Source: Saccoglossus kowalevskii (lineage: Eukaryota; Hemichordata; Enteropneusta; Harrimaniidae). Taken from it: 64,000 nt of DNA. The notes below the pieces were generated by a model. The model was not told the DNA's origin. It searched no databases and worked only from the letters and a program-made list of their open reading frames with translations. The stretch covers positions 1-64,000 of the forward strand of contig NW_003134803.1 in NCBI RefSeq assembly GCF_000003605.2, in the 5' to 3' direction. Shown here piece by piece: positions 1 through 64,000 of this stretch. The position numbers and the translations under genes were made by a program. The first letter of the stretch is position 1. Every line of letters begins with the position of its first letter.

Positions 1-215
1 CACACCTGTTTTAGATTCCTGGTCAGGTGAACATCGCAGCTTGTATAAAATGCTCATAGACAATTTAAAAAAAATATATAAATTGCCCTTTCGTATTTGT
101 TGCCTTATTACAAGAGAATATATAATACACGACGTGCAGTTCATGTCACAAGCATCCGATTGTATGCCATACTCGTGATTTCCCGATAAATAGGAAACGC
201 TTTCAAATGTCAACG
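1..215 (+). repeat. partial unit at left edge (spacer only)
   Basis: Spacer of a unit whose tRNA lies just outside the window, including its T4 terminator. Near-identical to the sequence starting at 41,394. No gene seen. Confidence 0.85.
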
Positions 216-242
216 TCCCATATGGTCTAGTGGTTAGGATTT
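216..242 (+). pseudogene. truncated tRNA-Glu stub
   Basis: First ~27 nt of the gene joined directly to the late spacer; unit is 110 bp. Confidence 0.8.
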
Positions 243-325
243 TGTGCAGTTCATGTCACAAGCATCCGATTGTATGCCGTACTTGTGTTTTCCCGATAAA
301 TAGGAAACGCCTTCATACGACAACG

Positions 326-397
326 TCCCATATGGTCTAGTGGTTAGGATTTGGCGCTTTCACCGCCAAGGCCCGGGTTCAATTACCGGTGTGGGAA
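326..397 (+). tRNA. tRNA-Glu(UUC)
   Basis: F; C60A opens the top T-stem pair. Confidence 0.8.
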
Positions 398-610
398 CAC
401 CTGTTTTAGATTCCTGGTCAGTTGAACATCGCAGCTTGTATAAAATGCTCATAGACAATTTAATAAAAATATGTAAATTGCCCTCTCGTATTTGTTGCCT
501 TATTACAAGAGAATATATAATACACGGCTTGCAGTTCATGTCACAAGCATCCGATTGTATGCCATACTTGTGTCTTCCCGATAAATAGGAAACGCCTTCA
601 AATGTCAACG

Positions 611-682
611 TCCCATATGGTTTAGTGGTTAGGATTTGTCGCATTCACCGCCAAGGCCCGGGTTCAATTCCAGGTGTGGGAA
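611..682 (+). pseudogene. tRNA-Glu-like, U33 lost
   Basis: F; C12T, G29T, T33A, C62A. Loss of the universal U33 argues against decoding. Confidence 0.7.
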
Positions 683-895
683 CACCTGTTTTAGATTCCT
701 GGACAGTTGAACATCGCAGCTTGTATAAAATGCTCATAGACAATTTAATTAAAAGATATAAATTGGCCTCTCGTATTTGTTGCCTTATTACAAGAGAATA
801 TATAATACACCACGTGCAGTTCATGTCACAAGTATCCTATTATATGCCTTATTTGTGTTTTCCCGATAAATAGGAAACGCCTTCATTCGACAACG

Positions 896-967
896 TCCCA
901 TATGGTATAGTGGTTAGGATTTGGCGCTTTCACCGCCAAGGCCCGGGTTCAATTCCCGGTGTGGGAA
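896..967 (+). tRNA. tRNA-Glu(UUC)
   Basis: F; C12A only. Confidence 0.82.
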
Positions 968-1179
968 TACCTGTTTTAGATTCCTGGTCAGTTGAACATC
1001 GCAGCTTGTATAAAATTCTCAAAGACAATTTAATTAAAAGATATAAATTGGGCCTCTCGTATTTGTTGCCTTATTACAGAGATATATAATACACGACTTG
1101 CATTTCATGTCACAAGCATCCGATTTGTATGCCATACTTGTGTTTTCCCGATAATAGGAAACGCCTTCAAATGTCAACG

Positions 1180-1251
1180 TCCCATATGGTTTAGTGGTTA
1201 GGATTTGTCGCTTTCACCGCCAAGGCTCGGGTTCAATTCCCGGTGTGAGAA
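1180..1251 (+). tRNA. tRNA-Glu(UUC)
   Basis: F; C12T, G29T, C48T, G69A. Mismatches in anticodon and acceptor stems. Confidence 0.65.
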
Positions 1252-1464
1252 CACCCGTTTTAGATTCCTGGTCAATTGAACATCGCAGCATGTACAAAAT
1301 TCTCAAAGACAATTTAATTAAAAGATATAAATTGGCCTCTCGTATTTGTTGCCTTATTACAAGAAAATATATAATACACGACGTGCAGTTCATGTCACAA
1401 GTATCCTATTATATGCCTTACTTGTGTTTTCCCGATAAATAGGAAACGCCTTCATACGTCAACG

Positions 1465-1535
1465 TCCCATATGTCTAGTGGTTAGGATTTGGCGCTTTCA
1501 CCGCCAAGGCCCGGGTTCAATTCCAGGTGTGGGAA
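1465..1535 (+). tRNA. tRNA-Glu(UUC), dG9
   Basis: dG9; C62A. Confidence 0.7.
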
Positions 1536-1748
1536 CACCTGTTTTAGATTCCTGGACAGTTGAACATCGCAGCTTGTATAAAATGCTCATAGACAATTTA
1601 ATTAAAAGATATAAATTGGCCTCTCGTATTTGTTGCCTTATTACAAGAGAATATATAATACACGACGTGCAGTTCATGTCACAAGTATTCTATTATATGC
1701 CTTACTTGTGTTTTCCCGATAAATAGGAAACGCCTTCATACGACAACG

Positions 1749-1820
1749 TCCCATATGGTCTAGTGGTTAGGATTTGTCGCTTTCACCGCCAAGGCTCGGG
1801 TTCAATTCCCGGTGTGAGAA
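1749..1820 (+). tRNA. tRNA-Glu(UUC)
   Basis: F; G29T, C48T, G69A. Confidence 0.65.
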
Positions 1821-2033
1821 CACCCGTTTTAGATTCCTGGTCAATTGAACATCGCAGCTTGTACAAAATGCTCATAGGCAATTTAATTAAAATATATAAA
1901 TTGGCCTGTCGTATTTGTTGCCTTATTTCAAGAGAATATATAATACCCGACGTGCAGTTCATGTCACAAGTATCCAATTATATGCCTTACTTGAGTTTTC
2001 CCGATAAATAGGAAACGCCTTCATACGACAAGG

Positions 2034-2105
2034 TCCCATATGGTCTAGTGGTTAGGATTTGGCGCTTTCACCGCCAAGGCCCGGGTTCAATTCCCGGTGT
2101 TGAAA
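2034..2105 (+). pseudogene. tRNA-Glu-like, broken acceptor
   Basis: F; G68T and G70A break two acceptor pairs. Confidence 0.65.
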
Positions 2106-2318
2106 TACCTGTTTTAGATTCCTGGTCAGTTGCACATCGCAGCTTGTATAAAATTCTCAAAGACAATTTAATTAAAAGATATAAATTGGCCACTCATATT
2201 TGTTGCCTTATTACAAGAGAATATATAATACACGACTTGCATTTCATGTCACAAGCATCCGATTGTATGCCATACTTGTGTTTTCCCGATAAATAGGAAA
2301 CGCCTTCAAATGTCAACG

Positions 2319-2390
2319 TCCCATATGGTTTAGTGGTTAGGATTTGTCGCTTTCACCGCCAAGGCTCGGGTTCAATTCCCGGTGTGAGAA
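2319..2390 (+). tRNA. tRNA-Glu(UUC)
   Basis: F; C12T, G29T, C48T, G69A; same set as 1180. Confidence 0.65.
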
Positions 2391-2610
2391 CACCCGTTTT
2401 AGATTCCTGGTCAATTGAACATCGCAGCTTGTACAAAATTCTCAAAGACAATTTAAATAAAAGATATAAATTGGCCTCTCGTATTTGTTGCCTTATTACA
2501 AGAGAATATATAATACACGACGTGCAGTTCATGTCACAAGTATCCTATTATATGCCTTCCTTGTGTTTTCCCGATAAATAGGAAACGCCTTCATACGACA
2601 ACGTCCCATA

Positions 2611-2621
2611 TGGTCTAGTGG
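2611..2621 (+). promoter_or_regulatory. internal A box (representative)
   Basis: TGGTCTAGTGG fits the eukaryotic Pol III A-box pattern TRGYNNARNNG. The dG9 copies lose one G here, which should weaken or shift the box. Confidence 0.75.
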
Positions 2622-2653
2622 TTAGGATTTGGCGCTTTCACCGCCAAGGCCCG

Positions 2654-2664
2654 GGTTCAATTCC
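2654..2664 (+). promoter_or_regulatory. internal B box (representative)
   Basis: GGTTCAATTCC fits the B-box pattern GGTTCRANNCC. It is kept in most copies; C55T, T53A or A57T changes damage it in some. Confidence 0.8.
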
Positions 2665-2681
2665 CGGTGTGGGAATACCTG

Positions 2682-2685
2682 TTTT
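2682..2685 (+). terminator. Pol III T4 terminator (representative)
   Basis: TTTT begins 7 nt after the discriminator base, the expected place for Pol III termination. It recurs in most units; interrupted versions follow the copies at 11644, 12497, 14204, 17624, 18193, 22737, 34567, 34851, 45446, 48071, 50569, 51138, 51417, 52853 and 53132. Confidence 0.75.
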
Positions 2686-2791
2686 AGATTCCTGGTCAGT
2701 TGAACATCGCAGCTTGAATAAAATTCTCAAAGACAATTTAATTAAAAGATATAAATTGGCCTCTCGTATTTGTTGCCTTATTACAAGAGAA

Positions 2792-2798
2792 TATATAA
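2792..2798 (+). promoter_or_regulatory. TATATAA motif in spacer (representative)
   Basis: Sits 91-97 nt upstream of the next tRNA start and recurs in nearly every unit. That is farther than the usual TATA position for Pol III genes, so a promoter role is only possible. Confidence 0.25.
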
Positions 2799-2851
2799 TA
2801 CACGACGTGCAGTTCATGTCACAAGTATCCTATTATATGCCTTACTTGTGT

Positions 2852-2870
2852 TTTCCCGATAAATAGGAAA
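2852..2870 (+). other. short inverted repeat upstream of each tRNA (representative)
   Basis: TTTCC and GGAAA form a 5-bp stem around a 9-nt loop, 19-37 nt upstream of the next tRNA. It is present in almost every unit. Function unknown; conservation may only reflect homogenisation. Confidence 0.35.
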
Positions 2871-2888
2871 CGCCTTCATACGTCAACG

Positions 2889-2959
2889 TACCATATGTCT
2901 AGTGGTTAGGATTTGGCGCTTTCACCGCCAAGGCCCGGGTTCAATTCCAGGTGTGGGAA
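2889..2959 (+). tRNA. tRNA-Glu(UUC), dG9
   Basis: dG9; C2A, C62A. Confidence 0.6.
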
Positions 2960-3172
2960 CACCTGTTTTAGATTCCTGGACAGTTGAACAAAGCAGCTTG
3001 TATAAAATGCTCATAGACAATTTTATTAAAAGATATAAATTGGCCTCTCGTATTTGTTGCCTTATTACAAGAGAATATATAATACACAAATTGCATTTCA
3101 TGTCACAAGCATCCGATTGTATGCCATACTTGTGTTTTCCCGATAAATAGGAAACGCCTTCAAATGTCAACG

Positions 3173-3244
3173 TCCCATATGGTTTAGTGGTTGGGATTTG
3201 TCGCTTTCACCGTCAAGGCTCGGGTTCAATTCCCGGTGCGGGAA
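3173..3244 (+). tRNA. tRNA-Glu(UUC)
   Basis: F; C12T, A21G, G29T, C41T, C48T, T67C. Confidence 0.55.
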
Positions 3245-3457
3245 CACCCGTTTTAGATTCCTGGTCAATTGAACATCGCAGCTTGTACAAAATTCTCAAA
3301 GACAATTTAATTAAAAGATATAAATTGGCCTCTCGTATTTGTTGCCTCATTTCAAGAGAATATATAATACACGACTTGCAGTTCATGTCACAAGCATCCG
3401 ATTGTATGCCATACTTGTGTCTTCCCGACAAATAGGAAACGCCTTCATACGTCAACG

Positions 3458-3529
3458 TCCCATATGGTCTAGTGGTTAGGATATGGCGCTTTCACCGCCA
3501 AGGCATGGGTTCAATTCCCGGTGTGAGAA
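3458..3529 (+). tRNA. tRNA-Glu(UUC)
   Basis: F; T26A, C48A, C49T, G69A. Confidence 0.65.
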
Positions 3530-3742
3530 CACCCGTTTTAGAACTCTGGTCAGTTGAACATCGCAGCTTGTATAAAATGCTCATAGGCAATTTAATTAAA
3601 ATATATAAATTGGCCTGTCGTATTTGTTGCCTTATTTCAAGAGAATATATAATACACGACGTGCAGTTCATGTCACAAGCATCCGATTGTATGCCATACT
3701 CGTATTTTCCCGATAAATAGGCAACGCTTTCAAATGTCAACG

Positions 3743-3769
3743 TCCCATATGGTCTAGTGGTTAGGATTT
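3743..3769 (+). pseudogene. truncated tRNA-Glu stub
   Basis: 27-nt stub, 110-bp unit; matches 61670. Confidence 0.8.
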
Positions 3770-3852
3770 TGTGCAGTTCATGTCACAAGCATCCGATTGT
3801 ATGCCGTACTTGTGTTTTCCCGATAAATAGGAAACGCCTTCATACGACAACG

Positions 3853-3924
3853 TCCCATATGGACTAGTGGTTAGGATTTGGCGCTTTCACCGCCAAGGCC
3901 CGGGTTCAATTCCCGGTGTGGGAA
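3853..3924 (+). tRNA. tRNA-Glu(UUC)
   Basis: F; T11A only. Confidence 0.8.
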
Positions 3925-4137
3925 CACCTGTTTTAGATTCCTGGTCAGGTGTACATCGCAGCTAGTATAAAATGCTCATAGACAATTTAATTAAAATATA
4001 TAAATTGCCCTCTCGTATTTGTTGCCTTATTACAAGAGAATATATAATACACGACGTGCAGTTTATGTCACAAGCATCCGATTGTATGCCATACTTGTGT
4101 TTTCCCGATAAATAGGAAACGCCTTCATACGACAACG

Positions 4138-4208
4138 TCCCATATGTCTTGTGGTTAGGATTTGGCGCTTTCACCGCCAAGGCCTGGGTTCAATTCTCGG
4201 TGTGAGAA
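4138..4208 (+). tRNA. tRNA-Glu(UUC), dG9
   Basis: dG9; A14T, C49T, C61T, G69A. Confidence 0.6.
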
Positions 4209-4421
4209 CACCCGTTTTAGAACTCTGGTCAGTTGAACATCGCAGCATGTATAAAATGCTCATAGGCAATTTAATTAAAATATATAAATTGGCCTGTCGT
4301 ATTTGTTGCCTTATTTCAAGAGAATATATAATACACGACGTGCATTTCATGTCACAAGCATCCGATTATATGCCATACTTGTGTTTTCCCGATAAATAGG
4401 AAACGCCTTCAAATGTCAACG

Positions 4422-4493
4422 TCCCATATGGTCTAGTGGTTAGGATTTGGCGCTTTCACCGCCAAGGCCTGGGTTCAATTCCCGGTGTGAGAA
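4422..4493 (+). tRNA. tRNA-Glu(UUC)
   Basis: F; C49T, G69A. Confidence 0.72.
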
Positions 4494-4706
4494 CACCCGT
4501 TTTAGAACTCTGGTCAGTTGAACATCGCAGCTTGTATAAAATGCTCATAGGCAATTTAATTAAAATATATAAATTGGCCTCTCGTATTTGTTGCCTCATT
4601 TCAAGAGAATATATAATACACGACTTGCAGTTCATGTCACAAGCATCCGATTGTATGCCATACTTGTGTCTTCCCGACAAATAGGAAACGCCTTCATACG
4701 TCAACG

Positions 4707-4778
4707 TCCCATATGGTCTAGTGGTTAGGATTTGGCGCTTTCACCGCCAAGGACCGGGTTCAATTCCCGGTGTGGGAA
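4707..4778 (+). tRNA. tRNA-Glu(UUC)
   Basis: F; C47A in the variable region only; all stems intact. Confidence 0.88.
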
Positions 4779-4991
4779 CACCTGTTTTAGATTCCTAGTC
4801 AGTTGAACATCGCAGCTTGTATAAAATGCTCATAGACAATTTAATTAAAATATATATATTGGCCGCTCGTATTTGTTGCCTTATTACAAGAGAATATATA
4901 ACACACGACGTGCAGTTCATGTCACAAGCATCCGATTGTATGCCATACTTGTTTTTTCCCGATAAATAGGAAACGCCTTCATACGAAAACG

Positions 4992-5063
4992 TCCCATATG
5001 GTCTAGTGGTTAGGATTTGGTGCTTTCACTGCCAATGCCTGGGTTCAATTTCCGGTGTGGGAT
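4992..5063 (+). tRNA. tRNA-Glu(UUC), wobble-stem form
   Basis: F; C30T and C39T turn two anticodon-stem pairs into U-G and G-U; also G45T, C49T, C60T, A72T (discriminator changed). Confidence 0.65.
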
Positions 5064-5276
5064 GACCTGTTTTAGATTCCTGGTCAGTTGAACATCGCAG
5101 CTTGTATAAAATTCTCAAAGACAATTTAATTAAAAGATATAAATTGGCTTCTCGTATTTGTTGCCTTATTACAAGAGAATATATAATACACGACGTGCAG
5201 TTCATGTCACAGGCATCCGATTGTATGCCATACTTGTGTTTTCCCGATAAATAGGAAACACCTTCATACGACAACG

Positions 5277-5347
5277 TCCCATATGTCATGTGGTTAGGAT
5301 TTGGCGCTTTCACCGCCAAGGCCCGGGTTCAATTCCCGGTGTGGGAA
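5277..5347 (+). tRNA. tRNA-Glu(UUC), dG9
   Basis: dG9; T13A, A14T; rest consensus. Confidence 0.7.
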
Positions 5348-9929: not shown

Positions 9930-10001
9930 TCCCATATGGTCTAGTGGTTAGGATTTGGCGCTTTCACCGCCAAGGCCCGGGTTCAATTCCCGGTGTGGGA
10001 A
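9930..10001 (+). tRNA. tRNA-Glu(UUC), consensus copy
   Basis: Exact consensus with a T4 terminator; one of three such copies. It follows the 84-bp unit. Confidence 0.93.
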
Positions 10002-11076: not shown

Positions 11077-11146
11077 TACCATATGTCTAGTGGTTAGGAT
11101 TTGGCGCTTACACCGCCAAGGCCGGGTTCAATTCCCGGTGTGGGAA
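11077..11146 (+). tRNA. tRNA-like, anticodon UAC
   Basis: dG9; T35A makes the anticodon TAC (would read GUA, Val); C2A and one C lost from 47-49. Probably an inert variant. Confidence 0.6.
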
Positions 11147-11359
11147 CACCTGTTTTAGATTCCTGGTCAGTTGAACATCGCAGCTTTTACAAAATTCTCA
11201 AAGACAATTTAAATAAAAAACATAAATTGGCCTCTCGTATTTGTTGCCTTAATACAAGAGAATATATAATACACGACGTGCTGTTCATGTCACAAGTATC
11301 GTATTATATGCCTTACTTGTGTTATCCCGATAAATAGGAAACGTCTTCATACGACAACG

Positions 11360-44434: not shown

Positions 44435-44647
44435 TACCTGTTTTAGATTCCTGGTCAGTTGAACATCGCAGCTTGTATAAAATTCTCAAAGACAATTTAA
44501 TTAAAAGACATAAATTGGCCTCTCGTATTTGTTGCCTTATTACATGAGAATATATAATACACGACGTGCAGTTCATGTCACAAGCATCCGATTGTATGCC
44601 ATACTCGTGTTTTCCCGATAAATAGGAAACGCTTTCAAATGTCAACG

Positions 44648-44674
44648 TCCCATATGGTCTAGTGGTTAGGATTT
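44648..44674 (+). pseudogene. truncated tRNA-Glu stub
   Basis: 27-nt stub, 110-bp unit. Confidence 0.8.
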
Positions 44675-44757
44675 TGTGCAGTTCGTGTCACAAGCATCCG
44701 ATTGTATGCCGTACTTGTGTTTTCCCGATAAATAGGAAACGCCTTCATACGACAACG

Positions 44758-44829
44758 TCCCATATGGTCTAGTGGTTGGGATTTGGCGCTTTCACCGCCA
44801 AGGCCCGGGTTCAATTCCCGGTGTGGGAA
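44758..44829 (+). tRNA. tRNA-Glu(UUC)
   Basis: F; A21G only. Confidence 0.82.
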
Positions 44830-45042
44830 CACTTGTTTTAGATTCCTGGTCAGGTGTACATCACAGCTAGTATAAAATGCTCATAGACAATTTAATAAAA
44901 ATATGTAAATTGCCCTCTCGTATTTGTTGCCTTATTACAAGAGAATATATAATACACGACGTGCAGTTCATGTCACAAGCATCCGATTGTATGCCATACT
45001 TGTGTTTTCCCGATAAATAGGAAACGCCTTCATACGACAACG

Positions 45043-45122
45043 TCCAATATGTCTTGTGGTTAGGATTTGGCACTTTCACCGCTTTCACCGCCAAGGCCCG
45101 GGTTCAATTCCCGGTGTGGGAA
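45043..45122 (+). pseudogene. tRNA-like with duplicated anticodon loop
   Basis: dG9; 9-nt duplication, C4A, A14T, G31A. Confidence 0.75.
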
Positions 45123-45335
45123 TACCTGTTTTAGATTCCTGGTCAGTTGAACATCGCAGCTTGTATAAAATTCCCAAAGACAATTTAATTAAAAGACATA
45201 AATTGGCCTCTCGTATTTGTTGCCTTATTACATGAGAATATATAATACACGACGTGCAGTTCATGTCACAAGCATCCGATTGTATGCCATACTCGTGTTT
45301 TCCCGATAAATAGGAAACGCTTTCAAATGTCAACG

Positions 45336-45362
45336 TCCCATATGGTCTAGTGGTTAGGATTT
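45336..45362 (+). pseudogene. truncated tRNA-Glu stub
   Basis: 27-nt stub, 110-bp unit. Confidence 0.8.
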
Positions 45363-45445
45363 TGTGCAGTTCATGTCACAAGCATCCGATTGTATGCCGT
45401 ACTTGTGTTTTCCCGATAAATAGGAAACGCCTTCATACGACAACG

Positions 45446-45517
45446 TCCCATATGGTCTAGTGGTTAGGATTTGACGCTTTCACCGCCAAGGCCCGGGTTC
45501 AATTCACGGTGTGGGAA
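45446..45517 (+). tRNA. tRNA-Glu(UUC)
   Basis: F; G29A, C61A; terminator broken (TTGT). Confidence 0.6.
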
Positions 45518-45730
45518 CACCTGTTGTAGATTCCTGGTCAGGTGTACATCGCAGCTAGTATAAAATGCTCATAGACAATTTAATAAAAATATATAAATTG
45601 CCCTCTCGTATTTGTTGCCTTATTACAAGAGAATATATAATACACGACGTGCAGTTCATGTCACAAGCATCCGATTGTATGCCATACTTGTGTTTTCCCG
45701 ATAAATAGGAAACGCCTTCATACGACAACG

Positions 45731-45801
45731 TCCCATATGTCTTGTGGTTAGGATTTGGCGCTTTCACCGCCAAGGCCCGGGTTCAATTCCAGGTGTGGGA
45801 A
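45731..45801 (+). tRNA. tRNA-Glu(UUC), dG9
   Basis: dG9; A14T, C62A. Confidence 0.66.
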
Positions 45802-46014
45802 CACCTGTTTTAGATTCCTGGACAGTGGAACATCGCAGCTTGTATAAAATGCTCATAGACAATTTAATTAAAAGATATAAATTGGCTTCTCGTATTTGTT
45901 GCCTTATTACAAGAGAATATATAATACACGACGTGCAGTTCATGTCACAAGTATCCTATTATATGCCTTACTTGTGTTTTCCCGATAAATAGGAAACGCC
46001 TTCATACGACATCA

Positions 46015-46086
46015 TCCCATATGGTCTAGTGGTTACGATTTGGCGCTTTCACCGCTAAGGCCCGGGTTCAATTCTCGGTGTGGGAA
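46015..46086 (+). tRNA. tRNA-Glu(UUC)
   Basis: F; G22C, C42T, C61T. Confidence 0.65.
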
Positions 46087-46299
46087 TACCTGTTTTAGAT
46101 TCCTGGTCAGTTGCACATCGCAGCTTGTATAAAATTCTCAAAGACAATTTAATCAAAAGATATAAATTGGCCACTCGTATTTGTTGCCTTATTACAAGAG
46201 AATATATAATACACGACTTGCATTTCATGTCACAAGCATCCGATCGTATGCCATACTTGTGTTTTCCCGATAAATAGGAAACGCCTTCAAATGTCAACG

Positions 46300-46371
46300 T
46301 CCCATATGGTTTAGTGGTTAGGATTTGTCGCTTTCACCGCCAAGGCTCGGGTTCAATTCCCGGTGTGAGAA
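46300..46371 (+). tRNA. tRNA-Glu(UUC)
   Basis: F; C12T, G29T, C48T, G69A. Confidence 0.62.
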
Positions 46372-46584
46372 CACCCGTTTTAGATTCCTGGTCAATTGAA
46401 CATCGCAGCTTGTACAACATTCTCAAAGACAATTTAAATAAAAGACATAAATTCGCCTCTCGTATTTGTTGCCTTATTACATGAGAATATATAATACACG
46501 ACGTGCAGTTCATGTCACAAGCATCCGATTGTATGCCATACTCGTGTTTTCCCGATAAATAGGAAACGCTTTCAAATGTCAACG

Positions 46585-46611
46585 TCCCATATGGTCTAGT
46601 GGTTAGGATTT
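46585..46611 (+). pseudogene. truncated tRNA-Glu stub
   Basis: 27-nt stub, 110-bp unit. Confidence 0.8.
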
Positions 46612-46694
46612 TGTGCAGTTCGTGTCACAAGCATCCGATTGTATGCCGTACTTGTGTTTTCCCGATAAATAGGAAACGCCTTCATACGACAACG

Positions 46695-46766
46695 TCCCAT
46701 ATGGTCTAGTGGTTGGGATTTGGCGCTTTCACCGCCAAGGCCCGGGTTCAATTCCCGGTGTGGGAA
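46695..46766 (+). tRNA. tRNA-Glu(UUC)
   Basis: F; A21G only. Confidence 0.82.
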
Positions 46767-46979
46767 CAGTTGTTTTAGATTCCTGGTCAGGTGTACGTCG
46801 CAGCTAGTATAAAATGCTCATAGACAATTTAATAAAAATATATAAATTGCCCTCTCGTATTTGTTGCCTTATTACAAGAGAATATATAATACACGACGTG
46901 CAGTTCATGTCACAAGCATCCGATTGTATGCCATACTTGTGTTTTCCCGATAAATAGGAAACGCCTTCATACGACAACG

Positions 46980-47059
46980 TCCAATATGTCTTGTGGTTAG
47001 GATTTGGCACTTTCACCGCTTTCACCGCCAAGGCCCGGGTTCAATTCCCGGTGTGGGAA
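46980..47059 (+). pseudogene. tRNA-like with duplicated anticodon loop
   Basis: dG9; 9-nt duplication; as 45043. Confidence 0.75.
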
Positions 47060-47272
47060 TACCTGTTTTAGATTTCTGGTCAGTTGAACATCGCAGCTTG
47101 TATAAAATTCCCAAAGACAATTTAATTAAAAGACATAAATTGGCCTCTCGTATTTGTTGCCTTATTACATGAGAATATATAATACACGACGTGCAGTTCA
47201 TGTCACAAGCATCCGATTATATGCCATACTCGTGTTTTCCCGATAAATAGGAAACGCTTTCAAATGTCAACG

Positions 47273-47299
47273 TCCCATATGGTCTAGTGGTTAGGATTT
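47273..47299 (+). pseudogene. truncated tRNA-Glu stub
   Basis: 27-nt stub, 110-bp unit. Confidence 0.8.
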
Positions 47300-47382
47300 T
47301 GTGCAGTTCATGTCACAAGCATCCGATTGTATGCCGTACTTGTGTTTTCCCGATAAATAGGAAACGCCTTCATACGACAACG

Positions 47383-47454
47383 TCCCATATGGTCTAGTGG
47401 TTGGGATTTGGCGCTTTCACCGCCAAGGCCCGGGTTCAATTCCCGGTGTGGGAA
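47383..47454 (+). tRNA. tRNA-Glu(UUC)
   Basis: F; A21G only. Confidence 0.82.
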
Positions 47455-47667
47455 CACTTGTTTTAGATTCCTGGTCAGGTGTACATCGCAGCTAGTATAA
47501 AATGCTCATAGACAATTTAATAAAAATATATAAATTGCCCTCTCGTATTTGTTGCCTTATTACAAGAGAATATATAATACACGACGTGCAGTTCATGTCA
47601 CAAGCATCCGATTGTATGCCATACTTGTGTTTTCCCGATAAATAGGAAACGCCTTCATACGACAACG

Positions 47668-47747
47668 TCCAATATGTCTTGTGGTTAGGATTTGGCACTT
47701 TCACCGCTTTCACCGCCAAGGCCCGGGTTCAATTCCCGGTGTGGGAA
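47668..47747 (+). pseudogene. tRNA-like with duplicated anticodon loop
   Basis: dG9; 9-nt duplication; as 45043 (+2,625 bp). Confidence 0.75.
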
Positions 47748-47960
47748 TACCTGTTTTAGATTCCTGGTCAGTTGAACATCGCAGCTTGTATAAAATTCCC
47801 AAAGACAATTTAATTAAAAGACATAAATTGGCCTCTCGTATTTGTTGCCTTATTACATGAGAATATATAATACACGACGTGCAGTTCATGTCACAAGCAT
47901 CCGATTGTATGTCATACTCGTGTTTTCCCGATAAATAGGAAACGCTTTCAAATGTCAACG

Positions 47961-47987
47961 TCCCATATGGTCTAGTGGTTAGGATTT
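47961..47987 (+). pseudogene. truncated tRNA-Glu stub
   Basis: 27-nt stub, 110-bp unit. Confidence 0.8.
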
Positions 47988-48070
47988 TGTGCAGTTCATG
48001 TCACAAGCATCCGATTGTATGCCGTACTTGTGTTTTCCCGATAAATAGGAAACGCCTTCATACGACAACG

Positions 48071-48142
48071 TCCCATATGGTCTAGTGGTTAGGATTTGAC
48101 GCTTTCACCGCCAAGGCCCGGGTTCAATTCACGGTGTGGGAA
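48071..48142 (+). tRNA. tRNA-Glu(UUC)
   Basis: F; G29A, C61A; broken terminator (TTGT). Confidence 0.6.
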
Positions 48143-48355
48143 CACCTGTTGTAGATTCCTGGTCAGGTGTACATCGCAGCTAGTATAAAATGCTCATAGA
48201 CAATTTAATAAAAATATATAAATTGCCCTCTCGTATTTGTTGCCTTATTACAAGAGAATATATAATACACGACGTGCAGTTCATGTCACAAGCATCCGAT
48301 TGTATGCCATACTTGTGTTTTCCCGATAAATAGGAAACGCCTTCATACGACAACG

Positions 48356-48426
48356 TCCCATATGTCTTGTGGTTAGGATTTGGCGCTTTCACCGCCAAGG
48401 CCCGGGTTCAATTCCAGGTGTGGGAA
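48356..48426 (+). tRNA. tRNA-Glu(UUC), dG9
   Basis: dG9; A14T, C62A. Confidence 0.66.
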
Positions 48427-48639
48427 CACCTGTTTTAGATTCCTGGACAGTTGAACATCGCAGCTTGTATAAAATGCTCATAGACAATTTAATTAAAAGA
48501 TATAAATTGGCTTCTCGTATTTGTTGCCTTATTACAAGAGAATATATAATACACGACGTGCAGTTCATGTCACAAGTATCCTATTATATGCCTTACTTGT
48601 GTTTTCCCGATAAATAGGAAACGCCTTCATACGACATCA

Positions 48640-48711
48640 TCCCATATGGTCTAGTGGTTACGATTTGGCGCTTTCACCGCTAAGGCCCGGGTTCAATTCT
48701 CGGTGTGGGAA
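48640..48711 (+). tRNA. tRNA-Glu(UUC)
   Basis: F; G22C, C42T, C61T. Confidence 0.65.
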
Positions 48712-48924
48712 TACCTGTTTTAGATTCCTGGTCAGTTGCACATCGCAGCTTGTATAAAATTCTCAAAGACAATTTAATCAAAAGATATAAATTGGCCACT
48801 CGTATTTGTTGCCTTATTACAAGAGAATATATAATACACGACTTGCATTTCATGTCACAAGCATCCGATCGTATGCCATACTTGTGTTTTCCCGATAAAT
48901 AGGAAACGCCTTCAAATGTCAACG

Positions 48925-48996
48925 TCCCATATGGTTTAGTGGTTAGGATTTGTCGCTTTCACCGCCAAGGCTCGGGTTCAATTCCCGGTGTGAGAA
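48925..48996 (+). tRNA. tRNA-Glu(UUC)
   Basis: F; C12T, G29T, C48T, G69A. Confidence 0.62.
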
Positions 48997-49209
48997 CACC
49001 CGTTTTAGATTCCTGGTCAATTGAACATCGCAGCTTGTACAACATTCTCAAAGACAATTTAAATAAAAGACATAAATTCGCCTCTCGTATTTGTTGCCTT
49101 ATTACATGAGAATATATAATACACGACGTGCAGTTCATGTCACAAGCATCCGATTGTATGCCATACTCGTGTTTTCCCGATAAATAGGAAACGCTTTCAA
49201 ATGTCAACG

Positions 49210-49236
49210 TCCCATATGGTCTAGTGGTTAGGATTT
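49210..49236 (+). pseudogene. truncated tRNA-Glu stub
   Basis: 27-nt stub, 109-bp unit. Confidence 0.8.
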
Positions 49237-49318
49237 TGTGCAGTTCATGTCAAAGCATCCGATTGTATGCCATACTTGTGTTTTCCTGATAAATAGGAAA
49301 CGATTTCAAATGACAACG

Positions 49319-49390
49319 TCCCATATGGTCTAGTGGTTAGGATTTGGCGCTTTCACCGCCATGGCCCGGGTTCAATTCCCGGTGTGGGAA
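49319..49390 (+). tRNA. tRNA-Glu(UUC)
   Basis: F; A44T only; all stems intact. Confidence 0.86.
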
Positions 49391-49603
49391 CACCTGTTTT
49401 AGATTCCTGGTCAGGTGAACATCGCAGCTTGTATAAAATGCTCATAGACAATTTAATAAAAATATATAAATTGCCCTTTCGTATTTGTTGCCTTATTACA
49501 AGAGAATATATAATACACGACGTGCAGTTCATGTCACAAGCATCCGATTGTATGCCATACTCGTGTTTTCCCGATAAATAGGAAACGCTTTCAAATGTCA
49601 ACG

Positions 49604-49630
49604 TCCCATATGGTCTAGTGGTTAGGATTT
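49604..49630 (+). pseudogene. truncated tRNA-Glu stub
   Basis: 27-nt stub, 110-bp unit. Confidence 0.8.
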
Positions 49631-49713
49631 TGTGCAGTTCATGTCACAAGCATCCGATTGTATGCCGTACTTGTTTTTTCCCGATAAATAGGAAACGCCT
49701 TCATACGACAACG

Positions 49714-49785
49714 TCCCATATGGTCTAGTGGTTAGGATTTGTCGCTTTCACCGCCAAGGCCCGGGTTCAATTACCGGTGTGGGAA
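49714..49785 (+). tRNA. tRNA-Glu(UUC)
   Basis: F; G29T, C60A. Confidence 0.65.
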
Positions 49786-49998
49786 CACCTGTTTTAGATT
49801 CCTGGTCAGTTGAACATCGCAGCTTGTATAAAATGCTCATAGACAATTTAATAAAAATATGTAAATTGCCCTCTCGTATTTGTTGCCTTATTACAAGAGA
49901 ATATATAATACACGACGTGCAGTTCATGTCACAAGTATCCTATTATATGCCTTACTTGTGTTTTCCCGATAAATAGGAAACGCCTTCATACGACAACG

Positions 49999-50070
49999 TC
50001 CCATATGGTCTGGTGGTTAGGATTTGGCGCTTTCACCGCAAATGACAGGGTTCAATTCCCGGTGTGGGAA
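49999..50070 (+). pseudogene. tRNA-Glu-like, decayed T-stem
   Basis: F; A14G, C42A, G45T, C47A, C49A. Confidence 0.55.
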
Positions 50071-50283
50071 CACCTGTTTTAGATTCCTGGTCAGTTGAAC
50101 ATCGCAGCCTGTATAAAATGCTCATAGACAATTTAATTAAAATATATAAATTGGCCTCTCGTATTTGTTGCCTTATTACAAGAGAATATATAATACACGG
50201 CTTGCAGTTCATGTCACAAGCATCCGATTGTATGCCATACTTGTGTCTTCCCGATAAATAGGAAACGCCTTCAAATGTCAACG

Positions 50284-50355
50284 TCCCATATGGTTTAGTG
50301 GTTAGGATTTGTCGCATTCACCGCCAAGGCCCGGGTTCAATTCCAGGTGTGGGAA
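50284..50355 (+). pseudogene. tRNA-Glu-like, U33 lost
   Basis: F; C12T, G29T, T33A, C62A; same as 611. Confidence 0.7.
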
Positions 50356-50568
50356 CACCTGTTTTAGATTCCTGGACAGTTGAACATCGCAGCTTGTATA
50401 AAATGCTCATAGACAATTTAATTAAAAGATATAAATTGGCCTCTCGTATTTGTTGCCTTATTACAAGAGAATATATAATACACCACGTGCAGTTCATGTC
50501 ACAAGTATCCTATTATATGCCTTACTTGTGTTTTCCCGATAAATAGGAAACGCCTTCATTCGACAACG

Positions 50569-58607: not shown

Positions 58608-58820
58608 CACCTGTTTTAGATTCCTGGTCAGTTGAACATCGCAGCTTGTATAAAATTCTCATAGACAATTTAATTAAAAGATATAAATTGGCCTCTCGTA
58701 TTTGTTGCCTCATTACAAGAGAATATATAATACACGACTTGCAGTTCATGTCCCAAGCATCCGATTGTATGCCATACTTGTGTTTTCCCGATAAATATGT
58801 ATCGCCTTCATACGGCAACG

Positions 58821-58892
58821 ACCCATATGGTCTAGTGGTTAGGATTTGGCGCTTTCACCGCCGAGGCCCGGGTTCAATTCCCGGTGTGGGAA
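58821..58892 (+). tRNA. tRNA-Glu(UUC), T1A form
   Basis: F; T1A, A43G. Confidence 0.72.
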
Positions 58893-59106
58893 CACCTGTT
58901 TTAGATTCCTGGTCAGTTGAACATCGCAGCTTGTATAAAATTATCATTGACAATTTAATTAAAAGATATAAATTAGCTTCTCGTATTTGTTGGCTTGATT
59001 ACAAGATAATATATAATATTCGACATTCAGTTCATGTCACAAGCATCCGATTGTATGCCATACTTGTGTTTTCCCGATAAATAGGAAACGCCTTCATACG
59101 ACAACG

Positions 59107-59177
59107 TACCATATGTCTAGTGGTTAGGATTTGGCGCTTTCACAGACATAGCCCTGGTTCAATTCCCGGTATGGGTA
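59107..59177 (+). pseudogene. tRNA-Glu-like, dG9, decayed
   Basis: dG9; C2A, C39A, C41A, A44T, G45A, G50T, G66A, A71T. Confidence 0.55.
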
Positions 59178-59390
59178 CACCTGTTTTAGATTCCTGGTCA
59201 GTTGAACATCGCAGCTTGTATAATATGCTCATAGACAATTTAATTAAAAGATATAAATTGGCCTCTCGTATTTGTTGCCTTATTACAAGAGAATATATAA
59301 TACACGACGTGCAGTTCATGTCACAAGTATCCTATTATATGCCTTACTTGTGTTTTCCCGATAAATAGGAAACGCCTTCATACGACAACG

Positions 59391-59461
59391 TCCCATATGG
59401 TCTAGTGGTTAGATTTGGCGCTTTCACCGTCAAGGCTCGGGTTCAATTCCCGGTGTGGGAA
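59391..59461 (+). tRNA. tRNA-Glu(UUC), dG22
   Basis: dG22; C41T, C48T. Confidence 0.65.
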
Positions 59462-59674
59462 CATCTGTTTTAGATTCCTGGTCAGTTGAACATCGCAGCT
59501 TTTACAAAATTCTCAAAGACAATTTAATTAAAAGATATAAATTGGCCTCTCGTATTTGTTGCCTTATTACAAGAGAATATATAATACACGACTTGCAGTT
59601 CATGTCCCAAGCATCCGATTGTATGCCATACTTGTGTTTTCCCGATAAATATGTATCGCCTTCATACGGCAACG

Positions 59675-59746
59675 ACCCATATGGTCTAGTGGTTAGGATT
59701 TGGCGCTTTCACCGCCGAGGCCCGGGTTCAATTCCCGGTGTGGGAA
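59675..59746 (+). tRNA. tRNA-Glu(UUC), T1A form
   Basis: F; T1A, A43G. Confidence 0.72.
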
Positions 59747-59960
59747 CACCTGTTTTAGATTCCTGGTCAGTTGAACATCGCAGCTTGTATAAAATTATCA
59801 TTGACAATTTAATTAAAAGATATAAATTAGCTTCTCGTATTTGTTGGCTTGATTACAAGATAATATATAATATTCGACATTCAGTTCATGTCACAAGCAT
59901 CCGATTGTATGCCATACTTGTGTTTTCCCGATAAATAGGAAACGCCTTCATACGACAACG

Positions 59961-60031
59961 TACCATATATCTAGTGGTTAGGATTTGGCGCTTTCACCGA
60001 CATAGCCCTGGTTCAATTCCCGGTATGGGAA
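59961..60031 (+). pseudogene. tRNA-Glu-like, dG9, decayed
   Basis: Same changes as 58253 (+1,708 bp). Confidence 0.55.
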
Positions 60032-60244
60032 CACCTGTTTTAGATTCCTGGTCAGTTGAACATCGCAGCTTGTATAATATGCTCATAGACAATTTAATTA
60101 AAAGATATAAATTGGCCTCTCGTATTTGTTGCCTTATTACAAGAGAATATATAATACACGACGTGCAGTTCATGTCACAAATATCCTATTATATGCCTTA
60201 CTTGTGTTTTCCCGATAAATAGGAAACGGCTTCATACGACAACG

Positions 60245-60315
60245 TCCCATATGGTCTAGTGGTTAGATTTGGCGCTTTCACCGCCAAGGCCCGGGTTCAA
60301 TTCCCGGTGTGGGAA
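60245..60315 (+). tRNA. tRNA-Glu(UUC), dG22
   Basis: dG22; otherwise consensus. Confidence 0.72.
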
Positions 60316-60528
60316 CACCTGTTTTAGATTCCTGGTCAGTTGAACATCGCAGCTTGTATAAAATTCTCATAGACAATTTAATTAAAAGATATAAATTGGC
60401 CTCTCGTATTTGTTGCCTCATTACAAGAGAATATATAATACACGACTTGCAGTTCATGTCCCAAGCATCCGATTGTATGCCATACTTGTGTTTTCCCGAT
60501 AAATATGTATCGCCTTCATACGGCAACG

Positions 60529-60600
60529 ACCCATATGGTCTAGTGGTTAGGATTTGGCGCTTTCACCGCCGAGGCCCGGGTTCAATTCCCGGTGTGGGAA
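60529..60600 (+). tRNA. tRNA-Glu(UUC), T1A form
   Basis: F; T1A, A43G. Confidence 0.72.
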
Positions 60601-60814
60601 CACCTGTTTTAGATTCCTGGTCAGTTGAACATCGCAGCTTGTATAAAATTATCATTGACAATTTAATTAAAAGATATAAATTAGCTTCTCGTATTTGTTG
60701 GCTTGATTACAAGATAATATATAATATTCGACATTCAGTTCATGTCACAAGCATCCGATTGTATGCCATACTTGTGTTTTCCCGATAAATAGGAAACGCC
60801 TTCATACGACAACG

Positions 60815-60885
60815 TACCATATGTCTAGTGGTTAGGATTTGGCGCTTTCACAGACATAGCCCTGGTTCAATTCCCGGTATGGGAA
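60815..60885 (+). pseudogene. tRNA-Glu-like, dG9, decayed
   Basis: dG9; C2A, C39A, C41A, A44T, G45A, G50T, G66A. Confidence 0.55.
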
Positions 60886-61098
60886 CACCTGTTTTAGATT
60901 CCTGGTCAGTTGAACATCGCAGCTTGTATAATATGCTCATAGACAATTTAATTAAAAGATATAAATTGGCCTCTCGTATTTGTTGCCTTATTACAAGAGA
61001 ATATATAATACACGACGTGCAGTTCATGTCACAAATATCCTATTATATGCCTTACTTGTGTTTTCCCGATAAATAGGAAACGGCTTCATACGACAACG

Positions 61099-61169
61099 TC
61101 CCATATGGTCTAGTGGTTAGATTTGGCGCTTTCACCGCCAAGGCCCGGGTTCAATTTCCGGTGTGGGAA
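61099..61169 (+). tRNA. tRNA-Glu(UUC), dG22
   Basis: dG22; C60T. Confidence 0.7.
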
Positions 61170-61382
61170 CACCTGTTTTAGATTCCTGGTCAGTTGAACA
61201 TCGCAGCTTGTATAAAATTCTCATAGACAATTTAATTAAAAGATATAAATTGGCCTCTCGTATTTGTTGCCTTATTACAAGAGAATATATAATACACGAC
61301 GTGCAGTTCATGTCACAAATATCGTATTATATGCCTTACTTGTGTTTTCCCGATAAATATGTATCGCCTTCATACGGGAACG

Positions 61383-61454
61383 ACCCATATGGTCTAGTGG
61401 TTAGGATTTGGCGCTTTCACCGCCGAGGCCCGGGTTCAATTCCCGGTGTGGGAA
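61383..61454 (+). tRNA. tRNA-Glu(UUC), T1A form
   Basis: F; T1A, A43G. Confidence 0.72.
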
Positions 61455-61669
61455 CACCTGTTTTAGATTCCTGGTCAGTTGAACATCGCAGCTTGTATAA
61501 AATTATCATTGACAATTTAATTAAAAGATATAAATTAGCTTCTCGTATTTGTTGGCTTGATTACAAGATAATATATAATATTCGACATTCAGTTCATGTC
61601 ACAAGCATCCGATTGTATGCCATACTCGTGTTTTCCCTGATAAATAGGCAACGCTTTCAAATGTCAACG

Positions 61670-61696
61670 TCCCATATGGTCTAGTGGTTAGGATTT
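61670..61696 (+). pseudogene. truncated tRNA-Glu stub
   Basis: 27-nt stub, 110-bp unit. Confidence 0.8.
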
Positions 61697-61779
61697 TGTG
61701 CAGTTCATGTCACAAGCATCCGATTGTATGCCGTACTTGTGTTTTCCCGATAAATAGGAAACGCCTTCATACGACAACG

Positions 61780-61851
61780 TCCCATATGGTCTAGTGGTTA
61801 GGATTTGGCGATTTCACCGCCAAGGTCCGGGTTCAATTCCCGATGTGGGAA
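61780..61851 (+). tRNA. tRNA-Glu(UUC)
   Basis: F; C32A, C47T, G64A. Confidence 0.65.
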
Positions 61852-62064
61852 CACCTGTTTTAGATTCCTGGTCAGGTGTACATCGCAGCTAGTATAAAAT
61901 GCTCATAGACAATTTAATAAAAATATATAAATTGCCCTCTCGTATTTGTTGCCTTATTACAAGAGAATATATAATACACGACGTGCAGTTCATGTCACAA
62001 GCATCCGATTGTATGCCATACTTGTGTTTTCCCGATAAATAGGAAACGCCTTCACACGACAACG

Positions 62065-62135
62065 TCCCATATGTCTTGTGGTTATGATTTGGCGCTTTCA
62101 CCGCCAAGGCCCGGGTTCAATTCCAGGTGTGGGAA
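62065..62135 (+). tRNA. tRNA-Glu(UUC), dG9
   Basis: dG9; A14T, G22T, C62A. Confidence 0.6.
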
Positions 62136-62348
62136 CACCTGTTTTAGATTCCTGGACAGTTGAACATCGCAGCTTGTATAAAATGCTCATAGACAATTTA
62201 ATTAAAAGATATAAATTGGCCTCTCGCATTTGTTGCCTTATTACAAGAGAATATATAATACACGACGTGCAGTTCATGTCACAAGTATCCTATTGTATGC
62301 CATACTTGTGTTTTCCCGATAAATAGGAAACGCCTTCAAATGTCAACG

Positions 62349-62420
62349 TCCCATATGGTTTAGTGGTTAGGATTTGTCGCTTTCACCGCCAAGGCTCGGG
62401 TTCAATTCCCGGTGTGAGAA
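62349..62420 (+). tRNA. tRNA-Glu(UUC)
   Basis: F; C12T, G29T, C48T, G69A. Confidence 0.62.
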
Positions 62421-62633
62421 CACCCGTTTTAGATTCCTGGTCAATTGAACATCGCAGCTTGTACAAAATTCTCAAAGACAATTTAAATAAAAGATATAAA
62501 TTGGCCTCTCGTATTTGTTGCCTTATTACAAGAGAATATATAATACACGACGTGCAGTACATGTCACAAGTATCCTATTATATGCCTTACTTGTGTTTTC
62601 CCGATAAATAGGAAACGCCTTCATACGACAACG

Positions 62634-62705
62634 TCCCATATGGTCTAGTGGTTAGGATTTGGCGCTTTCACCGCCAAGGCCCGGGTTCAATTCCCGGTGT
62701 GGGAA
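62634..62705 (+). tRNA. tRNA-Glu(UUC), consensus copy
   Basis: Exact consensus with a T4 terminator; counterpart of 2604 at +60,030 bp. Confidence 0.93.
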
Positions 62706-62918
62706 TACCTGTTTTAGATTCCTGGTCAGTTGAACATCGCAGCTTGAATAAAATTCTCATAGACAATTTTATTAAAAGATATAAATTGGCCTCTCGTATT
62801 TGTTGCCTTATTACAAGAGAATATATAATACACGACGTGCAGTTCATGTCACAAGTATCCTATTATATGCCTTACTTGTGTTTTCCCGATAAATAGGAAA
62901 CGCCTTCATACGTCAACG

Positions 62919-62989
62919 TACCATATGTCTAGTGGTTAGGATTTGGCGCTTTCACCGCCAAGGCCCGGGTTCAATTCCAGGTGTGGGAA
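62919..62989 (+). tRNA. tRNA-Glu(UUC), dG9
   Basis: dG9; C2A, C62A. Confidence 0.6.
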
Positions 62990-63202
62990 CACCTATTTTA
63001 GATTCCTGGACAGTTGAACATCGCAGCTTGTATAAAATGCTCATAGACAATTTTATTAAAAGATATAAATTGGCCTCTCGTATTTGTTGCCTTATTACAA
63101 GAGAATATATAATACACAACTTGCATTTCATGTCACAAGCATCCGATTGTATGCCATACTTGTGTTTTCCCGATAAATAGGAAACGCCTTCAAATGTCAA
63201 CG

Positions 63203-63274
63203 TCCCATATGGTTTAGTGGTTAGGATTTGTCGCTTTCACCGTCAAGGCTCGGGTTCAATTCCCGGTGCGGGAA
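63203..63274 (+). tRNA. tRNA-Glu(UUC)
   Basis: F; C12T, G29T, C41T, C48T, T67C. Confidence 0.55.
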
Positions 63275-63487
63275 CACCTGTTTTAGATTCCTGGTCAATT
63301 GAACATCGCAGCTTGTACAAAATTCTCAAAGACAATTTAAATAAAAGATATAAATTGGCCTCTCGTATTTGTTGCCTTATTACAAGAGAATATAGAATAC
63401 ACGACGTGCAGTTCATGTCACAAGTATCCTATTATATGCCTTACTTGTGTTTTCCCGATAAATAGGAAACGCCTTCATACGACAACG

Positions 63488-63559
63488 TCCCACATGGTCT
63501 AGTGGTTAGGATTTGGCGCTTTCACCGCCAAGGCCCGGGTTCAATTCCCGGTGTGGGAA
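63488..63559 (+). tRNA. tRNA-Glu(UUC)
   Basis: F; T6C only, which turns the U6-G66 wobble into a C-G pair; a fully paired acceptor. Confidence 0.88.
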
Positions 63560-63772
63560 TACCTGTTTTAGATTCCTGGTCAGTTGAACATCGCAGCTTG
63601 TATACAATTCTCAAAGACAATTTAATTAAAAGATATAAATTGGCCTCTCGTATTTGTTGCCTCATTACAAGAGAATATATAATACACGACTTGCAGTTCA
63701 TGTCACAAGCATCCGATTGTATGCCATACTTGTGTCTTCCCGACAAATAGGAAACGCCTTCATACGTCAACG

Positions 63773-63844
63773 TCCCATATGGTCTAGTGGTTAGGATATG
63801 GCGCTTTCACCGCCAAGGCCTGGGTTCAATTCCCGGTGTGAGAA
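63773..63844 (+). tRNA. tRNA-Glu(UUC)
   Basis: F; T26A, C49T, G69A. Its spacer is cut by the window end. Confidence 0.68.
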
Positions 63845-64000
63845 CACCCGTTTTAGAACTCTGGTCAGTTGAACATCGCAGCTTGTATAAAATGCTCATA
63901 GGCAATTTAATTAAAATATATAAATTGGCCTGTCGTATTTGTTTCCATATTTCAAGAGAATATATAATACACGACGTGCAGTTCATGTCACAAGCATCCG
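63845..64000 (+). repeat. partial spacer at right edge
   Basis: Terminator and first part of a spacer; no other feature seen. Confidence 0.85.

Follow-up and report, generated by a model that had tools for sequence, protein, structure and literature searches.

Tandem arrays of tRNA genes comparable to the one considered here have already been published from Hydractinia, Phytophthora infestans, Entamoeba, zebrafish and Xenopus. In Hydractinia, arrays in which tens to hundreds of tRNA copies recur at even spacing, their spacers being repeated as well, are described for all 20 amino acids, together with arrays of rRNA and snRNAs, and the copies are characterized as nearly identical or highly similar (PMC11067881). 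The oomycete P. infestans is reported to carry long single-isotype arrays, many of them on unplaced contigs (in one example, 271 tRNA-Cys copies repeat at a unit length of 513 nt), and its monomeric arrays located on a single chromosome are presented as nearly identical in sequence (PMC9584435). Tandem arrays are described as a genome-wide arrangement in the amoeba Entamoeba, where some tRNA genes are dispersed, a unit may contain as many as five of them, and copies are mostly uniform within an isolate (PMC2652664). Zebrafish chromosome 4 and the oocyte arrays of Xenopus are accounts of repetitive tRNA sets alongside dispersed copies that are backed by developmental expression (PMC11417395, PMC11500080). 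The human 1q23.3 tRNA VNTR, likewise a tandem repeat containing tRNA-Glu, is described with a 7.3-kb GC-rich unit harboring five tRNAs and a CTCF site, present in 9-43 units of 98% identity (PMC4041453). A literature search conducted without the species name returned no paper naming the present array, although we do not claim its absence from print.

The window, i.e. the whole 64,000-bp stretch of Saccoglossus kowalevskii DNA analyzed, is entirely occupied by a head-to-tail tRNA-Glu repeat of ~285 bp (TRF period 284/285) that continues through all of contig NW_003134803.1 (129,187 bp). It is thus a long array of one tRNA with a common spacer, in the manner of isotype-specific tandem tRNA arrays. 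A 43-mer taken from the tRNA matched the genome 670 times with up to 2 mismatches and its reversed control not once, which excludes a chance origin of the repeat. ARAGORN called 203 tRNA genes in the window, all on the + strand, and the contig contains 432 tRNA 3′ ends on + and none on −, with neighbors never more than 578 bp apart; Rfam returned 204 tRNA matches above the gathering score, 150 of which were listed. The edge-to-edge period and the single orientation noticed in the sequence-only reading were thereby confirmed. Its estimate of about 235 units agrees with the 234 that could be anchored, except that only 216 of these are full (mostly ~285 bp), the other 18 being ~110-bp truncations that retain the 5′ half of the tRNA only. 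The claim that nothing is inserted was nearly correct, six longer spacings being found among the anchored units and unit sizes of 333 and 369 bp occurring. Of the two open ends proposed, the right one does run on as array to the far end of the contig, whereas the left edge is simply the contig end. Coordinates are collected in Table 1.

Table 1. Features of the tRNA-Glu array, in window coordinates.
Position	Strand	Feature	Evidence
1..64000	+	Tandem tRNA-Glu array of 234 anchored units, 216 of them full and 18 truncated; its left edge coincides with the contig start	ARAGORN, TRF, Rfam
134..243	+	Truncated unit of ~110 bp (example), with the tRNA 5′ half fused to spacer	Sequence, TRF
326..397	+	Leftmost complete tRNA-Glu(UUC) copy in the window (72 nt)	Sequence, ARAGORN, Rfam
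398..610	+	Example of a spacer (~213 bp) separating two tRNA copies	Sequence
404..407	+	TTTT, candidate Pol III terminator, 7-10 nt past the first complete tRNA	Sequence
2604..2675	+	tRNA copy equal to the array consensus	Consensus comparison
9930..10001	+	tRNA copy equal to the array consensus, within a 369-bp unit	Consensus comparison
11077..11147	+	Copy with anticodon TAC, called Val	ARAGORN
16772	+	Gly call (TCC)	ARAGORN
17057; 19330	+	Further Val-type calls	ARAGORN
44615..50500	+	Duplicated-block region: 9 units from 44615 reappear 11 units on; end approximate	
62634..62705	+	tRNA copy equal to the array consensus	Consensus comparison

The tRNA itself is far from being the same in every unit, as had been supposed: the 216 full units of the window encode 130 distinct tRNA sequences, and an indel is present in 103 of them and absent from 113. 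Glu does account for 198 of the 203 ARAGORN calls, the remainder being three Val, one Gly and one undefined, and across the contig 425 of 431 copies have TTC as their anticodon. As the energy minimum predicted for the consensus tRNA folded as a single RNA is not a cloverleaf (z −1.65), pairing was scored at standard tRNA positions. Twenty-four of the 216 units were indel-free with all 21 pairs and a Glu anticodon, and 12 additionally possessed an A box, a B box and TTTT, making them fully intact; over the whole contig, 40 of 431 copies were structurally perfect with both boxes and a T-run. In 201 of the 216 units, a T-run follows the tRNA at a distance of no more than 25 nt.

Statistics of substitution indicate that single copies decay in the manner of a satellite, since rare, and hence recent, substitutions affect the tRNA and the spacer about equally often (tRNA/spacer ratios of 1.16, 1.07 and 1.28 at matched composition) and stem mispairs in indel-free copies (338) are close to the 347.8 expected if the two sides of a stem mutate independently. 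Indel-free copies carry a mean of 2.86 substitutions with a variance of 2.52, and 17 of them are unmutated, against a Poisson expectation of 14.9. When all substitutions are counted, the tRNA/spacer ratio at matched composition is 0.77 in the window, 0.75 in the contig and 0.67 in contig C983, and equally low values are found in 55, 43 and 35, respectively, of 285 windows around the unit; weak selection on the tRNA may underlie this deficit of common variants. Apart from that weak deficit, the locus behaves as a long array evolving free of selection on its single copies. Decay driven by methylation was considered and is unsupported, transitions at CpG amounting to 0.028 in the tRNA, where other C/G sites show 0.023, and to 0.024 in the spacer, where those sites show 0.034.

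Monomers across the contig are 92.65% identical on average, and 375 of the 414 full ones are distinct. Adjacent monomers are barely more alike than distant ones, and no regular higher-order repeat was found among them beyond a small excess at lag 3 and a few duplicated blocks. The many distinct monomers and the scant extra likeness of neighbors speak against artificial expansion of a short array during assembly, as do related arrays in eight contigs besides that of the window and the arrays of other isotypes described below. Such an artefact is accordingly very unlikely, even though the six array contigs read whole are all devoid of non-array flanks and the contigs may represent alternative haplotypes.

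Comparison with tRNA-Glu genes elsewhere in the genome pointed to the probable origin of the unit. Five dispersed genes with the UUC anticodon share one sequence, which departs from the array consensus at 13 of 72 sites. Of five CUC genes listed as dispersed, the two that were read are in contrast equal over 72 nt to the consensus of a sister CUC array, with unrelated flanks. The consensus tRNAs of the CUC and UUC arrays differ at the wobble base alone, and their spacers by 13 substitutions and two indels; contig C1449, whose consensus lacks the motif used to locate the tRNA, was left out of this comparison. Judged from these sequences, the window array is an amplified tRNA-Glu of the CUC lineage that bears a UUC anticodon. 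The array spacer was absent from all seven dispersed genes read (two CUC and five UUC), which argues against a SINE-like retroposon turned tandem. The unit does consist of a tRNA head and an unrelated tail, and SINE-derived tandem repeats have reportedly been described (PMC10702118). The unit nevertheless contains a complete tRNA gene with a T-run, and the CUC sister consensus equals dispersed genes, leaving a retroposon origin very improbable.

Separate arrays were identified from sequence for Glu-UUC, Glu-CUC, Arg, Cys, Trp and Thr among eight anticodons sampled, those of iMet and Lys being indicated by match spacing only. Among the tRNA genes sampled, arrayed and dispersed copies coexist. 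Several isotypes thus each have their own array, as in the Hydractinia and P. infestans type, and this genome shares with the former, as described, an animal host and regular arrays with repeated spacers (PMC11067881). It departs from the near-identity reported there in that its Glu copies are mostly broken, at the mean identity given above, and carry a switched anticodon. The wording "highly similar" used for Hydractinia is looser, so that this departure affects only the strict form of membership (PMC11067881). Long single-isotype arrays on contigs recall P. infestans, and the divergent copies, mostly one tRNA per unit, set the locus apart from the Entamoeba arrays as described (PMC2652664).

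A role in chromatin, as a boundary or structural component, had been suggested at first beside a source of tRNA fragments; binding of TFIIIC or Pol III would then count for more than the tRNA product. The human 1q23.3 repeat reportedly binds CTCF and has been implicated in boundary function (PMC4041453), and the B box equals the consensus in 145 of the 216 window units and the A box in 104. The A box is, however, broken in the other 112, and in a comparison of one unit per isotype the spacers of different arrays shared no common element, only tRNA homology and short matches at chance level, so we regard this role as improbable.

Given the arrays of other tRNAs and the ordinary copies elsewhere, we read the locus as a tRNA-gene satellite, perhaps a germline bank. 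That it is a satellite, composed mostly of pseudogenes with an intact minority, is probable; a tRNA-derived satellite had been among the roles first suggested, and the lack of detectable selection on the tRNA, divergent monomers and normal tRNA-Glu genes elsewhere lend it good support. Set beside the observed anatomy and decay, the kinship with dispersed CUC genes, the separate set of dispersed UUC genes and the arrays of other isotypes, the following history is proposed. A tRNA-Glu(CUC) gene would, together with its flanks, have turned into a tandemly repeated unit some 285-291 bp long, and in one branch the wobble base C34 would have changed to U, most plausibly in that direction, yielding the UUC array. 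Unequal exchange may then have expanded and reshuffled the units, producing the duplicated block, the 110-bp deletion units and subfamilies. Single copies would subsequently mutate, with no selection discernible on the tRNA fold, until most became pseudogenes and the structurally perfect minority counted above was left, which may be transcribed by Pol III. The probable founder, the daughter array with its switched anticodon and the decay of that array's copies are all legible in one genome, which adds one more animal to those with isotype-specific tRNA arrays and in which treating array copies as genes would swell tRNA gene counts many-fold. In the mitochondrial genes COX1, COX2 and ND1 on contig C4830 of this assembly, TGA falls at tryptophan positions, AGA at serine-like positions (two codons, both in ND1) and AAA at conserved lysines, a usage that speaks against the vertebrate, tunicate, echinoderm and flatworm codes.

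An amplified gene bank, also among the first suggestions, is a possible role for the intact copies only. In its oocyte form, arrays would supply the egg and early embryo and dispersed genes the soma, a reading we hold as possible but doubtful. Zebrafish maternal tRNAs are reported to lie in repetitive regions and later isodecoders in isolated copies (PMC11417395), and the arrayed and dispersed sets differ in sequence here for tRNA-Glu (UUC) and tRNA-Cys, the Glu-CUC consensus being, unlike these, indistinguishable from its dispersed genes. Against it stand the small number of intact window units (12 of 216) and the decay of copies with no selection on them detected. The oocyte and satellite readings are compatible provided that intact copies alone are used. 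More speculatively, and rather unlikely, the arrays may form a second tRNA set that spans isotypes and serves germline or egg, the dispersed set serving the soma; the CUC-type body with a UUC anticodon would then be an array-specific isodecoder, most of whose copies have since died, and would show such a bank in the course of turnover. The zebrafish and Xenopus arrays are tied to developmental expression and the present one is known from sequence (PMC11417395, PMC11500080); its array-specific bases make egg supply directly testable, and if the arrays do supply the egg, separate tRNA sets for germline and soma would not be confined to those two animals. Also in favor of an oocyte bank, the tRNA is clearly better conserved than the spacer in the sampled Cys units (0.050 vs 0.098). 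Thus, not every array decays freely.

The sequence-only reading had described the window as an edge-to-edge, one-strand array of tRNA-Glu units, and this was borne out by ARAGORN, Rfam and TRF. ARAGORN predicted 203 tRNA genes in the window (198 Glu, three Val, one Gly and one undefined), all on the + strand, 204 Rfam tRNA matches (150 of these listed) lay above the gathering score, and TRF returned a repeat period of 284/285 bp. The window starts at the first base of its contig (C2654; 129,187 bp, in a 572-Mb assembly of 4830 contigs), and the array spans the whole of it, with 432 tRNA 3' ends on the + strand, 0 on the - strand, and intervals between them of at most 578 bp.

Units were scored using A box, B box and stem definitions that we take to be the standard tRNA positions. 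The window comprises 216 full and 18 truncated units, the latter ~110 bp long and retaining the tRNA 5' half alone, together with six longer spacings of 333 or 369 bp; the T-run lies at +7 to +10 in both the first copy and the consensus. The tRNA was free of indels in 113/216 full units, 24 of which combined a complete set of 21 stem pairs with a Glu anticodon, and 12 of these 24 also had an A box, a B box and TTTT. The corresponding series for the entire contig was 431, 259, 57 and 40. A single deletion without insertion, frequently the loss of an A box G, was found in 84/216 window units. The window has 130 distinct tRNA sequences and the whole contig 240, and the anticodon is TTC in 425 of the contig's 431 full copies. 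The array is probably a satellite of tRNA genes in which a minority of copies remain structurally intact.

We read the diversity, mutation counts, stem mispairs and substitution ratios of the array as showing no detectable selection on single copies. Per-site diversity across 210 full window units was 0.079 for the tRNA as compared with 0.075 for the spacer, and a significant tRNA diversity deficit was sought but not seen in four other array contigs (C983, C103, C742 and C1197). Substitutions from consensus in the 259 indel-free copies had a mean of 2.86 and a variance of 2.52, with 17 unmutated copies observed against a Poisson expectation of 14.9 (C983: 11 against 6.6). Independent mutation of the two stem sides would predict 347.8 mispairs, and 338 were counted (C983: 92 counted, 95.3 predicted; CUC contigs: 223 counted, 220.3 predicted). 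At matched composition, the tRNA/spacer ratio of rare substitutions was 1.16, 1.07 and 1.28 in the window, C2654 and C983, respectively. For all substitutions the tRNA was lower (0.77, 0.75 and 0.67), and among 285 windows placed around the unit, 55, 43 and 35 had ratios as low. A weak filter on array tRNA copies is possible.

Full monomers of the contig had a mean identity of 92.65%, almost constant at every distance but slightly higher at lag 3 (93.5%), and 375/414 were distinct. Three duplicated blocks of at least five units were present, the biggest comprising 9 units from 44.6 kb repeated 11 units on. This monomer pattern is consistent with an old array in which unequal exchange proceeds slowly, and speaks against an expansion introduced by the assembly.

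Six contigs read whole (ARAGORN covering the first 10 kb each of C983, C1197 and C1449) account for 572/670 genome matches of a 43-mer from the array tRNA-Glu; non-array flank was sought in all six and found in 0/6. C2654, C983 and C1449 are mostly UUC arrays, and C103, C742 and C1197 are mixed CUC and UUC arrays with a ~291-bp unit. C3505 and C4635 are also arrays (4 tRNA-Glu apiece in the 1.2 kb read), and C3111 has nine matches, from which alone its array status was judged. Some array contigs may be alternative haplotypes. The wobble base is the sole difference between the UUC and CUC consensus tRNAs; their spacers differ by 13 substitutions and two indels.

A canonical tRNA-Glu pattern search of the genome yielded five dispersed genes. 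All five were read and proved to be one identical 72-nt tRNA-Glu(UUC) with 13/72 sites different from the array consensus; their contigs measure 31 to 921 kb, and their flanks matched neither array consensus. Two of them lie 1.1 kb apart in C2367 and have flanks resembling each other. A wider pattern gave 597 genome matches (2 for the control); among the 100 listed, five lay outside known array contigs (two in C166 and one each in C257, C354 and C409). The two copies read, from C166 and C257, equal the CUC array consensus at 72/72 nt and have unrelated flanks. The UUC array consensus occurs in 57 exact copies, each of them on an array contig (C3111 being classed as such from its matches only). 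In the simplest history, whose direction we infer, the arrays would go back to a CUC gene and the UUC branch to a change of its wobble base.

Published work describes anticodon shifts between tRNA genes in flies (PMC7884595), and tRNA tandem arrays in Hydractinia, with Nematostella named too (PMC11067881), Entamoeba (PMC2652664), Phytophthora infestans (PMC9584435) and human 1q23.3 (PMC4041453). Such arrays are already known; what is distinctive here is an anticodon-switched, largely dead one. Other reports give high tRNA counts for zebrafish and Xenopus (PMC9858662) and place maternally deposited zebrafish tRNAs in regions that are highly repetitive, with tRNAs of later stages in isolated copies (PMC11417395). 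By analogy with these two animals, the intact minority might conceivably be transcribed or serve the germline, although we regard this as rather unlikely.

Arrays of other isotypes were found in a genome-wide tRNA search in which 63/25,204 first-look candidates were scored.

Units and coordinates of tRNA arrays and related features (C, contig; L, stretch sampled from a contig)
Feature	Unit	Location	Strand	Basis
Glu array unit	72-nt tRNA, then T-run, then ~213 bp spacer	window	+	
Arg-UCG array	~565 bp	C237:1-3500 (L034), L037, L038		sampled stretches
Cys-GCA array	~238 bp	L035, L036, L042		sampled stretches
Trp-CCA array	~466 bp			sampled stretches
Thr-UGU array	581 and 680 bp, three copies	C4103:95001-97000 (L039)		sampled stretches
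Isolated tRNA-Cys		C3532:52201-53200 (L045)		
Lys-CUU matches		C4166:869-129253		

Across 27 sampled Cys units from three contigs, variation was 0.050 in the tRNA and 0.098 in the spacer (2/167 windows as low); with the tRNA-Cys half as variable as its spacer, the Glu array may therefore be the more decayed. Corresponding values were 0.020 and 0.038 for 11 sampled Arg units (47/492 windows as low) and 0.035 and 0.045 for 5 sampled Trp units (194/392). A Cys 41-mer had 235 genome matches at ≤3 mismatches, one being isolated among the 100 listed, and one isolated tRNA-Arg gene was present in the sampled stretches, in C3484. For iMet and Lys-CUU, isotypes picked beforehand, there were 242 (100 listed) and 48 genome matches; those in C341 and C4166 lie mostly near multiples of 603 and 527 bp, respectively, a match spacing that defines two putative arrays, and a few matches were isolated elsewhere (for iMet, among those listed). 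The Lys-CUU matches in C4166 span 128 kb, with a gap from ~62.5 to 128.2 kb holding none.

The Arg unit includes a second, decayed tRNA-Arg (~76% over 99 bp), which makes it look like an old dimer. In the Thr array, CCA stands one base past the 72-74-nt gene in 3/3 copies, and the unit also includes several degenerate tRNA-Thr pieces. The tRNA-Cys acceptor pair 5-68 is G-C in the isolated gene and A-T in the array, by eye a paired change. In a mitochondrial piece, C4830 (L033), ND1 and COX2 share one strand and COX1 lies on the other; between COX1 and COX2 sit tRNAs Cys, Gln, Ala, Asn and Tyr.
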